NCBI GenBank assembly: GCA_004519485.1
Contig: CP038134.1
Span: 682,001-746,000, forward strand
Source of the DNA: Nannochloropsis oceanica
Taxonomy: Eukaryota; Sar; Eustigmatophyceae; Eustigmatales; Monodopsidaceae
Length of the DNA: 64,000 nt
Reading direction: 5' to 3'
Below are positions 35,977 through 41,694 of this stretch, one piece after another. Both the position numbers and the translations under genes were made by a program. The first letter of the stretch is position 1, and each line of letters begins with the position of its first letter. The notes below the pieces were generated by a model. It was given only the letters and a program-made list of their open reading frames with translations. It had not been told where the DNA came from and did not search any database.

Positions 35977-35989
35977 CTAGGGATCGAAG

Positions 35990-37588
35990 CTCGATACCAG
36001 AGCTCTCAGTGATCTGCTGAAGAACGTGGTGCGACGCAGACCCACAGCGATGACCAAGGAGGCATGGAGCGAAGCATGCCCCGATTGGTTGAAGCGACTG
36101 GGAGGGATGGACACCAAAAAGTTTTGCCAGGATGCGGTTTCGGTGAAGGAGATGTGGGACGAGACTTTTCAGGTGGGGAACCTACGAAACCAGCGGGTGT
36201 TTCATAATCGGGTTTCCACGGATGGTGTCTCGGTGTCGGTCTTCTTCCACGTGGCGAAGGAGAGACTGGAGAGGGAGAAAGCGGAGAGGGTCAGAGTGGA
36301 AAAGGAGGACGAGGAGAAGGAGATGTTGGAACGTCAGCAGGGACAGGAAAACCTGCAGCCAGTCAGAGAGCGACGCATTGTCGCGATCGATCCCGGTCGC
36401 GTCAACCTGGTCACGGCGTTGGACTCGCAGACGGGCAAGATCAAGACCTTGACGCGTCGTGCGTACTACGAAAAGGGGCGGATCAACGAGTGCAAGAGAA
36501 AGTTTAGCTCTTGGGAGGACGCACTCGGTGACATCAATGCCGCCTTTTCGAGGACCACGATGAAGTCCTGTTGTCCCGACTTGCGTAGCGCTTACAGGGA
36601 GCTGATCGTACGGCATTACCACCGATTGTGGGATGCCAGGTATGAAAAGAAACGGGCGCGTGCGCATATGGCGGTGTATGCGGGGAAGCAGAAGGTCTTG
36701 GATGATTTTTTTGCGGGCTTGACGGGGCCAGGGCAGGCGAAGCCCATTATCGCGTATGGGGCGGCGATTTTCCCGCACACAGGCAAGGGAGAGGTGAGCG
36801 TTCCGGTGAAGAGGGTGCTCCGGGTGTGCGAAAGGTACTACAGAACAGTGTATGTACCCGAGCACCTGACGACAAAGGTTCACCTCGATTGTGGGCAGCG
36901 CCTGAACCCTATTGCGAGAAGGACAGAAGGAGAAAGAGGAGAAGGAGGAGGTGATGGAGAAGGAGGTGGAGGAGGAGGAGGAGGGGAAGGAGGTGGAGGA
37001 GGCGAAGGGGGTGGAGGAGGGGAAGGAGGTGGAGGCGGAGGAGGAGGCGGAGGAGGGGAAGGGGAGGAGGGGGAAGGGGAGAAGGAGGAGGGGAAGGAGG
37101 AGGAGGGGAAGGAGGAGGAGGGGAAGGAGGGTGGAGGGGAAGGAGGAGGAGGGGAAGGAGGAGGAGGGGAAGGAGGAGGAGGGGAAGCAGGAAGGGGAGG
37201 GGGAGGAAGAAGAGGGAAAAGAACCCGGGCTGCGGAAGCAGCAGCAGCCGCCCAGAGGCGCCTGACCATACAGGTGGCACGTGCTGAAGCACGAGCCCGG
37301 GCAGCTGCAGGAGGAGGAGGAGGAGGAGGGGGAAGGGATAGCAGGATGGATACAGGAGGGGATCCTGGAAGGGTAGGAGTGGGAGGAGTCGGGGCGGCCG
37401 GAGCGGCAACAGGAGGAGGAGGAGAGGGAATGAGAGGAATCCCCACTATACTCTCTTTACCCGGAGAACAGGCAGCACGAGNNNNNNNNNNNNNNNNNNN
37501 NNNNNNNNNNNNNNNNNNNNNNNNNNNNNNNNNNNNNNNNNNNNNNNNNNNNNNNNNNNNNNNNNNNNNNNNNNNNNNNNNGACGGAG

Positions 37589-37628
<40 letters not shown>

Positions 37629-37821
37629 CAGAGGAGGAGGTCATGAGCGGGCCATCCGAGGACTGTATTGGTGTGACACCTGTGAACAGTTCGTGTCCCG
37701 GGACGGCAATGGGGCACGTAACATCCTGCGGGTGTACAGGAGTATGGTCCGTGGAGAAGCTCGTCCCCATGATCTTCGGTTTGGTCAACCGCGGCAGGAC
37801 ATGCGGACACTCTACCTGTAG
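35990..37821 (+). CDS. Fanzor1-type RNA-guided nuclease, 5'-partial, with assembly gap
   Basis: Eukaryotic relative of TnpB; characterised Fanzor proteins cut DNA under guidance of an RNA from the same element. Seen in order: VFHNRVSTDGVSVSVFF (typical before the nuclease core); RuvC-I with the catalytic Asp in IVAIDPGRVNLVTALD; a helical insert ending YEKKRARAHMAVYAGKQK; the AYGAAIFPHTGKGEVSVPVK block before RuvC-II; VPEHLTTKVHLDCGQRLNPI; then, after a long Gly/Glu-rich insert and the gap, GLYWCDTCEQFVSRDGNGA with the RuvC-III Asp, and RNILRVYRSMVRGEARP. The first half of the zinc ribbon reads H-x2-C instead of C-x2-C. The N-terminal third of a usual Fanzor1 is missing at the left edge. Because the 100-N gap has placeholder length, the frame across it cannot be judged. 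Confidence 0.82.
36925..37430 (+). repeat. Gly/Glu-rich GGA low-complexity insert in Fanzor
   Basis: About 500 bases of purine-rich GGAGGA, GGGGAA and GAAGGA units lie between the two halves of the Fanzor zinc ribbon. They encode Gly-rich protein in the Fanzor frame and Glu-rich protein in the next frame. There is an island of less biased sequence (about 37215-37310, with RAEARARAAAG). Confidence 0.8.
37482..37581. other. Assembly gap of 100 N
   Basis: Exactly 100 undetermined bases, a standard placeholder, so the true length is unknown. It lies in the GC-rich repeat zone of the Fanzor gene and is followed by six GACGAG hexamers. Confidence 0.98.
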
Positions 37822-38053
37822 CCTTCCCGCTGACCTCCTCTTTGCTCCTCCTTCCCCCCCTCCTCCTGGCCCTGTGTGGGCCGTCCGGGGACTTTGCCAG
37901 GTCAAAAAACCTGTCAAAGTCGCCAGAAAAACTCGGACGAGAAATAAGGGATGACAACAATTTCTTGTTGGAAGGCTCCCCCTCGTATGCAAGTCCTCGA
38001 AGACGTCAGGTTGCATGCGATAGTTCTAGAGAGATGTAGGAACTCAAAAAGAA
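37822..38053 (+). ncRNA. Candidate Fanzor guide-RNA region (3' tail), copy 1
   Basis: In TnpB and Fanzor systems the guide RNA usually comes from the end of the element downstream of, or overlapping, the nuclease gene. This tail holds GGCCC-TGTGT-GGGCC (37868-37882). It also has a strong hairpin at 37890-37921: GACTTTG and CAGGT on one side, ACCTG and CAAAGTC on the other, with one C/T mismatch. The tail of the second copy (41446-41681) is highly similar, and its outer GACTTTG/CAAAGTC stem is kept while the inner stem is not. The similarity may only reflect recent copying. No transcript evidence is available. Confidence 0.35.
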
Positions 38054-38246
38054 CTAGGGATCGAAGGTAAAAAAAAAATAAAAAAAATAACCATATAACC
38101 TAACACACGTAACGCAACCTTTGGTAGAAAAAAGGTGCAAATGGAAGCCTCCATAGCGGACCGATGTAAAGCAAGGTCTACTTATCCAGAAGAAATAATG
38201 TCGTTATATGTGCTACGTTTGTTTTTGGCACCGTCCCCATTCATCA

Positions 38247-39847: not shown

Positions 39848-41145
39848 TTAGCAAGTGGTTCTTGGCACATCTCGGTCTTCATCATGCCCACAACGTTCAC
39901 ACTTGAAGATTTTGCTGCTCCCTAAACCCTCGTTGACCAGACAGCAAGAGCTGCACGTTATACTCGTGCCATGCTCTTCAGATCCAAGACGACCTTCCAA
40001 CAACTCTCGGCCCTCGTCCTGATACGCTCATTATCTCATTGGTCCTTACCGTCAAAACACTCGCCCCCCCCCACCATCCTCCCCACACCCGATTTCGGAG
40101 CCACGATCACATCAAGAGAAAGACGATCGCCTTGAAATAAAGATCGATCGCTACCAATGTTGCTAGCTCTCGCATTTGCGCGGTACCAAGCCTTGGTAAC
40201 GTCTTAATCTTCCGTCGCAGGATCCTACTCTTTTCTCGATTTCCCCACTTCTCCCCTCGCAACGCTTCTCTCTCGAACGCTGTCATTCTTCCCCCGATGC
40301 CATCGATCTTCTTCTTCATGGCACGCGCCATCATACCAGGAGCGATTTCTCCACATTCCTTCTCCAAATAGCATGCTATGAAAGTGCACACTCCGGGGTC
40401 TAGCGCCCCTACTCGTCCTTTCCCCGACTTCATTACCCCCACCTGCTCTTTCTTTTCAACTTTGTAAGGCATCGAATATACCAATCTCCCAGAACAATAC
40501 TGGATAGAACAGTCTGCGTCAACTACATGCTTGAGGTTCTCGCACATCTTGATACCTTTCTCCATCCCAAATTTATGCCGGGTGAAAAAAAAACGAAGAG
40601 CTCCGTCGAATTTGTGTCCTCGCTTGTCAACACCTTGACACTCTTCTTGAAGCCAAACGAATCACTGGTCATGCGCTTGGACTTGGACTTGATATGCTGA
40701 AGACGGCTTCCCCCTTCCCCTTCCCCTTCCCCTTCCCTTCCCCCTCGCCTTGGGGTTCCTCATGTTGCTGTTCTGCTTCTTTTTTTTGTCCTTCTTATGC
40801 TTCTTGCTCTTCTTGCTCTTGTTGTTTTTCTTGTTGTCACCCTGCCCGCTTTTCTTCTTTCGATTGCACTCTTGAATGCAGTCAACAGGCCATGCACGGC
40901 GTGCGAGCGAATAGCCGAGGGAGTCCCCTTCATTTTCAGCACCTTGGGCCCGTCCTCCTCTCGGGTCCTCTCGGGTAGTCACGACCATTTTCTATATCGG
41001 GAGATCCGGTTTGGCCTTTTTTCCTTGATAAGACGAAGAGCTGAGTTCCAAGTATCCCGGGCCGCCCTCATCCACACATGCATCTTTCTGGCCTGTTCAA
41101 CCGTCGGACGTAGGCAAGTCGTGTCGAGGCGCTAAAAATCTTGGC
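39848..41145 (-). pseudogene. Decayed Fanzor2/TnpB-type nuclease gene
   Basis: Read on the minus strand, pieces of a second, different Fanzor lie in order. The N-terminal RPTVEQARKMHVWMRAARDT with WNSALRLIKEKR lies near 41030-41130. ARRAWPVDCIQECN, the spot where this family has TPxDIR-type residues, lies near 40880-40920 and is followed by a Lys-rich run. A RuvC-I block VGALDPGVCTFIACY with the catalytic Asp and KKKIDGIGGRMTAF is at about 40275-40430. Near 39850-39940 is a zinc ribbon (CSSC, then FKCERCGHDEDRDV) with the RuvC-III Asp. The pieces fall in different frames and the gene is clearly non-functional, broken in several places. It is closer to Fanzor2/TnpB than to the neighbouring Fanzor1 copies. 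It is probably older than them. Confidence 0.75.
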
Positions 41146-41253: not shown

Positions 41254-41694
41254 CTATACGAGCAACATGGGCGGGCCATCCGAGGACTGTATTGGTGTGA
41301 CACATGTGAACAGTTATTATCACGGGACGGCAATGGGGCACGTAACATCCTGCGGGTGTACAGAAATATGGTCCGTGGAGAAGCTCGTCCCCATGATCTT
41401 CGGTTTGGGCAACCGCGGAAAGATATGCGGACACTCTATGTGTAGCGTTCCCGCTGACCTCCTCTTTTCTCCTCCTTCCCCTACTCCTCCTGGCCCTGTG
41501 TGGGCCGTCCGGGGACTTTGCCTGATCGAAAAACCTGTCAAAGTCGCTAGTAAAACTCGGACCAAAATAAGGGATGAATATGCAACAATTTCTTGTTGGA
41601 AGGCTCCCCCTCGTATGTTAGTCCTAGAGGACGCAGGTTGCATGCGATAGTCCTAGAGGGATGTAGGAACGGCGAAAAGAACTATACGAGCAAC
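41254..41694 (+). mobile_element. Second, heavily 5'-truncated Fanzor1 insertion with 13-base direct repeats
   Basis: CTATACGAGCAAC occurs at 41254-41266 and again at 41682-41694. Between them is a copy of only the Fanzor1 C-terminal end and 3' tail. Similarity to the first copy starts right after the left repeat (ATGGGCGGGCCATCC against ATGAGCGGGCCATCC) and stops at GAAAAGAA, directly before the right repeat. It encodes GLYWCDTCEQLLSRDGNGA and RNILRVYRNMVRGEARP up to a stop at 41443-41445; the RuvC-I part is absent, so it is not a working nuclease. It lies at the 5' edge of the decayed Fanzor2 gene on the other strand. Confidence 0.8.
41446..41681 (+). ncRNA. Candidate Fanzor guide-RNA region (3' tail), copy 2
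   Basis: It is homologous to 37822-38053. The GGCCC-TGTGT-GGGCC stem is kept, and the outer arms GACTTTG (41514-41520) and CAAAGTC (41539-41545) still pair. Two AGTCCTAGAGG copies occur near the end, one of them within a GTCCT-AG-AGGAC inverted repeat. Function is inferred only from position. Confidence 0.3.

Follow-up and report, generated by a model that had tools for sequence, protein, structure and literature searches.

The window analysed here, 64,000 nucleotides of contig CP038134.1 of Nannochloropsis oceanica, contains near 41 kb a 415-bp Fanzor1-like fragment on the plus strand (41267..41681), delimited by homology and a genome search. An identical 13-base sequence, CTATACGAGCAAC, abuts each of its ends, as read from the sequence (41254..41266 and 41682..41694, both on the plus strand; 13/13 bases). 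Reading the DNA by hand showed that the fragment codes for ...GLYWCDTCEQLLSRDGNGARNILRVYRNM...LYV* alone, a leftover coding part running to the stop codon (41269..41445, plus strand) with the second zinc knuckle (WCDTC) and RuvC-III (SRDGNGARN). This is followed by a conserved 236-bp 3' tail (41446..41681, plus strand), defined by tail alignment and fold prediction, which has a predicted fold and ends in ...GATGTAGGAACGGCGAAAAGAA. A first-pass annotation had described a fragment with the C-terminal zinc/RuvC-III part and 3' tail alone inside a 13-base repeat, and this was confirmed to the base. An exact 13-base repeat at both breaks in homology is far beyond what chance could plausibly give.

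A longer 5'-truncated Fanzor1-like copy of 2064 bp lies upstream on the same strand (35990..38053), carrying a RuvC-I-like VAIDPGRVNL, a GGA-rich linker and the zinc/RuvC-III end. Sequence comparison placed its own target-site repeat, CTAGGGATCGAAG, at 35977..35989 and 38054..38066 on the plus strand. The 3' ends of the 41-kb and 38-kb copies both read ...AAAAGAA, both repeats open with CTA, and the left ends differ by 1649 bp; these coordinates agree with the same 3' end, different CTA-initial 13-base targets and left-end gap of about 1.65 kb first reported. A run of 100 Ns is found inside the longer copy (window 37482-37581). Between the two copies lies a decayed third TnpB/Fanzor-like gene of a different kind (window 39862-40661, minus strand), with a RuvC-I-like GRVGALDPGVCTF and a zinc ribbon CSSC...CERCGHDEDRDV; its match to IS607_TnpB (E 0.006) is below cut-off.

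Both copies are on the same strand and 3.2 kb apart, as might be seen had the 38-kb copy been duplicated or gene-converted locally. When 1500 bp to either side were checked for shared sequence beyond the repeats, nothing similar turned up at E 0.01. Identity of the 41-kb copy is 93.5% to a copy elsewhere (L011), against 90.4% to its 38-kb neighbour. Since the flanking sequences show no relationship and relatives that match the 41-kb copy better sit on other contigs, the two insertions are independent, as the first-pass annotation had proposed. Together with the different 13-bp repeats, these results rule out local duplication, to which we give next to no chance.

The genome searched comprises 29.26 Mb in 32 contigs. 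Two genome searches, each giving at least 41 places (the best 40 scored of 205 and of 193 candidates), were pooled with a search for a 22-base end pattern (38 places) to give at least 71 distinct Fanzor 3' ends genome-wide. An alignment of 42 ends was obtained from 46 rows, one being a duplicate and three being dropped because over 25 bases were missing at the end of the match (two reach a locus edge, the third is a diverged copy); the sequences of C9, L070 and L069 were examined beside these 42. In the C9 copy the common body reaches back 4.1 kb from the 3' end; it consists of a leader with strong predicted hairpins, a Fanzor1-like gene and a 230-bp 3' tail. Within the gene, a long GGA-rich stretch separates the two zinc knuckles. 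This GGA-repeat stretch (Gly/Glu/Arg-rich) differs in size from copy to copy, and in the C9 copy (L042) and at window 36920-37620 it contains the recurring segment ILSLPGEQAARALATI.... We read the 41-kb feature as one 5'-truncated member of this multi-copy Fanzor1-like mobile family.

Motifs and weak best matches, none passing its cut-off, are the basis for putatively assigning the protein to Fanzor1/TnpB. For the 53-amino-acid C-terminal end, taken from the equivalent piece of a sister copy, the best match is of the TnpB kind in all three libraries, at weak E values of 0.03-0.34: NCBIfam IS607_TnpB (E 0.03) and guided_TnpB (0.1), Pfam Cas12f1-like_TNB (E 0.1) and PDB TnpB-like L79 (0.34), all below cut-offs. 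We take VAIDPGRVNLVTAL and IIAYGAGIF to resemble the RuvC-I and RuvC-II motifs; the RuvC-I/RuvC-II part gave no TnpB profile match, and an AlphaFold model of the window Fanzor piece was unusable (pLDDT 38). Selection was examined over 930 bp of the gene in seven copies, two with a stop and two with small alignment gaps, with relatedness treated by the split into shared and private variants alone. Variants shared by at least two copies were synonymous in 20 cases and not in 19, where 26% were expected to be synonymous (p = 0.0006), while private variants included 22 synonymous changes and 39 others (37 amino-acid changes and two stops; p = 0.05). Pairwise dN/dS among the five stop-free copies was 0.24-0.49. 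The pattern of substitutions suggests that the protein was under purifying selection in the spreading lineages.

Most copies share the usual end ...CAAAAAGAA. CTA directly follows 23 of the 27 ends that match the 22-base pattern with at most one mismatch (the rest being CGA twice, GTA once and one missing from the junction listing), and 30 of 33 pattern matches overall. It also follows 35 of 39 sampled ends, which were chosen by motif, with six of the 42 aligned copies excluded from the count as having no motif; the other four are followed by CTT (2), GTA and TTA. Against a CTA background of 0.7% in the window, the suspected CTA preference is strong. Five of the six aligned copies without the usual 3' end stop at or just after GATGTA(G), and L017 stops slightly further on. 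Short additions are present right before AGAACTA in L057, L068, L015, L063 and L065. These additions and the imprecise 3' ends are as expected from priming slippage. A paired 3' hairpin, TAGTTCT...AGAACTA, was considered as a target guide and rejected, since its variants show no compensating changes by eye. Both sides were changed in just 1 of 47 pairs in the 3' tail, the copies being too alike to show covariation.

The repeat test asked for matches that begin directly at the 3' junction. Such a match, eight bases or longer, was found in 9 of 37 tested copies, and eight controls in which the right-hand sequence was moved by 5-50 bp gave 7, 5, 3, 5, 1, 5, 3 and 2 of 37 (mean 3.9), so the excess is modest. 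Five of these nine matches sit directly against the element's left end, with lengths of 13 bp (41 kb), 13 bp (38 kb), 10 bp (L046), 9 bp (L063) and 8 bp (L012); the left ends of L063 and L012 fall in the GGA-rich stretch and were judged by eye. In all five the left repeat, which lies outside the truncated element, is CTA-initial too. L028 has a 13-bp repeat with 408 bp of filler inside it, and the matches in L019, L015 and L023, 0.4-1.2 kb from element homology, are probably chance. Repeats starting one to three bases later, without the full CTA, gave four matches in 36 copies, each lying 1.7-3 kb upstream, and repeats excluding CTA were rejected with no case at any element left end. The repeat is absent from ten copies whose left end could be read by eye (L009, L014, L016, L053, L054, L055, L062, L066, L068 and L070). 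Repeats are variable in length and often undetectable, and most tested copies are without one, which rules out a constant 13-bp repeat. The equal repeat length of the two window copies, pointed out in the first-pass annotation, is a coincidence and no trait of the family.

Three classes of left end occur: copies may be truncated, at many different points, deleted internally or extended by 5' additions. In L011, L018, L028 and L058 the 5' part is joined to the 3' end across an internal deletion. The internal-deletion joins read by eye (C9, L027/L022, L028, L054, L057 and L058) show microhomology and not GT-AG, and splice-type deletions were rejected, with none among these joins. The 5' additions comprise at least five kinds, A to E. 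The type E leader is the L028 filler and matches C19:679066-679413 (97% over 349 bp), a segment just upstream of a same-sense ATG with the frame open across the 27 codons seen, as judged by eye. The final 80 bp of the filler are also found at C23:407258, on the same strand and 2.1 kb upstream of a 3' end at C23:405184; a plasmid match to the C19 leader was not found, which is uninformative. The type A leader is present in L010, L022, a C7 copy and a C14 match that lies upstream of a known 3' end by about 2 kb. Its match in the host, C15:874188-874364, extends to about 874520, and from there the host sequence runs on without Fanzor. Matches on C7 and C1, considered as host donors of the type A and type B leaders, turned out to be further Fanzor copies, and no host donor was found for type B. 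Neither donor locus (C19, C15) holds a Fanzor copy at the break, and splicing, RNA template switching or a lost insertion would each explain a donor without the element. The C15 fusion breaks splice-donor-like between CAG and GTAAAC, which is only suggestive because the C19 fusion has no splice-donor sequence.

Several other arrangements were observed around individual copies. Tail-to-tail, near-identical pairs lie 18 bp apart in L064 (C11:849500-851400) and 7 bp apart in L069 (C15:405300-405700), and the arms of the L069 pair have private changes in common by eye. L010 (C11:732000-740900) contains repeated fold-back duplications within a single copy, the switch points falling at short inverted repeats. 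The sequence CTAACTAGC follows both L027 (C2:858390) and L028 (C21:550997), and a 59-bp stretch downstream of L027 reappears in inverted form immediately within the left repeat of L028.

The 3'-anchored copying pattern holds, and at a probability of about 0.5 we favour RNA-templated, target-primed insertion over rolling circle as its cause. A Fanzor transcript ending in the conserved tail ...AAAAAGAA would be copied into the genome from its 3' end, with the nicked target strand, 3' end ...TAG (CTA on the opposite strand), as the primer. Early stops or template jumps would produce the truncations, internal deletions and attached host leaders, and a second nick at a variable 8-13 bp off would produce the repeats. 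The features of a target-primed retroposon are present, namely a fixed 3' end (imprecise in 6/42), 5' truncation and, in a minority, variable repeats; priming, a polymerase and passage through RNA are inferred. Target-primed RNA copying best explains the CTA primer, the slippage-like additions, the imprecise ends and the host-leader chimeras. Its weak link is the enzyme. An RVT_1 domain search of the genome gave two matches, both below cut-off, decayed and Ty3-like by eye, with no LINE-type or working reverse transcriptase among them; there is no poly(A) tail and no evident intron. The microhomology joins, the C19 fusion and the many tested copies in which no repeat is detected also weigh against this reading. 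The paper on the N. oceanica CCMP1779 genome gives LINE as two pieces totalling 659 bp, and 17 retrotransposons, none intact. The retroposition reading of the first-pass annotation stands for the 3'-anchored copies, variable 5' ends and CTA and falls for equal repeat length, and the pattern alone does not prove its RNA intermediate.

Since the RVT_1 search showed no working reverse transcriptase and there is a precedent in Chlamydomonas, rolling circle is a serious rival. A non-autonomous Helitron2-like element would start at its 3' end, leave a truncation where it stopped early and captured sequence where it overran, and give variable repeats. This was proposed for CRe-1/2/3, the Fanzor1 elements of Chlamydomonas reinhardtii, which were assigned to Helitron2 and show the same signature: 5' truncation, internal deletions, intact 3' ends, and repeats of 7-19 bp that occur chiefly in the truncated copies (Bao and Jurka 2013, PMC3627910). 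Truncation and repeats are thus no proof of an RNA intermediate. CRe-1/2/3 also have extra non-Fanzor sequence inside the 5' repeat (PMC3627910), an arrangement like that of L028, and the CCMP1779 paper names Helitrons as the most abundant recognisable transposons. Nineteen PIF1-type helicase matches were obtained, six on C17 and four on C18, with stops in 4/19; these are candidate helicases whose Helitron membership is putative, and host helicases will be among them. PIF1-type clusters, some members with stops, occupy C17:631880-664281 and C18:823959-837049, the latter reaching the contig end. Helitron_like_N (PF14214) gave zero matches in a search without a positive control. No inverted repeat was found linking the two ends of L010 (the longest match has 8 bp, against a mean of 6.5 and a maximum of 10 in shuffles), the target is CTA and not TTTT, and the 3' ends are imprecise. 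On this balance, rolling circle appears possible and rather unlikely.

Break repair would need no reverse transcriptase: a TAG-ended strand would anneal by microhomology at the donor 3' end, and synthesis would proceed with template switches. The microhomology joins, the L010 fold-backs, the L064 and L069 pairs and the repeat-less copies would all fit, but the common 3' start and three-base target preference go unexplained unless a product of the element marks the donor end, and we regard this explanation as improbable. More doubtful still is that the Fanzor RNP itself serves as a retroposition machine, in which the 3' tail would be both guide scaffold and priming template, the nuclease would nick before CTA, and a host polymerase, with telomerase or polymerase theta as conceivable candidates, would copy the RNA. 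If true, this would be an RNA-guided-nuclease retroposon spreading without a LINE, and would account for a selected Fanzor gene and 3'-anchored copies in a genome where reverse transcriptases are nearly absent.

What service Fanzor provides to its transposon is an unsettled question. In this family there is a sign that purifying selection acted on the protein over successive copying rounds, even as individual copies decayed. The copies bear a signature usually taken to mean reverse transcription, yet the RVT_1 search shows no working reverse transcriptase. The alternatives are a partner still missing from the picture or a contribution of Fanzor RNPs to copying RNA or DNA into CTA sites. N. oceanica is transformable according to the title of PMC3499364, so the mechanism is testable.

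The family is already known. LINE-dependent SINEs and retrogenes are likewise 3'-anchored and 5'-truncated, with variable repeats and host-leader chimeras. Unlike these, the N. oceanica family has no LINE found in the RVT_1 search and no poly(A), and carries an RNA-guided nuclease gene with signs of selection. It resembles CRe-1/2/3 in its Fanzor1 gene, truncated 5' and intact 3' ends, internal deletions, variable repeats and extra 5' sequence, whereas CRe-1/2/3 have ends in common with Helitrons, insert after TTTT and contain 5-10 exons (PMC3627910), against a CTA motif, no inverted ends on L010 and no evident intron here. PMC3627910 counts one Fanzor1 family for N. oceanica, in a passage that describes neither copy structure nor target site, and this is possibly the present one. 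The Mucor MCi-2 Fanzor has a nearly identical 3' region joined to several 5' regions, with 11-12 bp repeats and the fixed start ATAATT (PMC3627910); in contrast, the fixed motif of the N. oceanica family is CTA, and its copies are 5'-truncated to many lengths.
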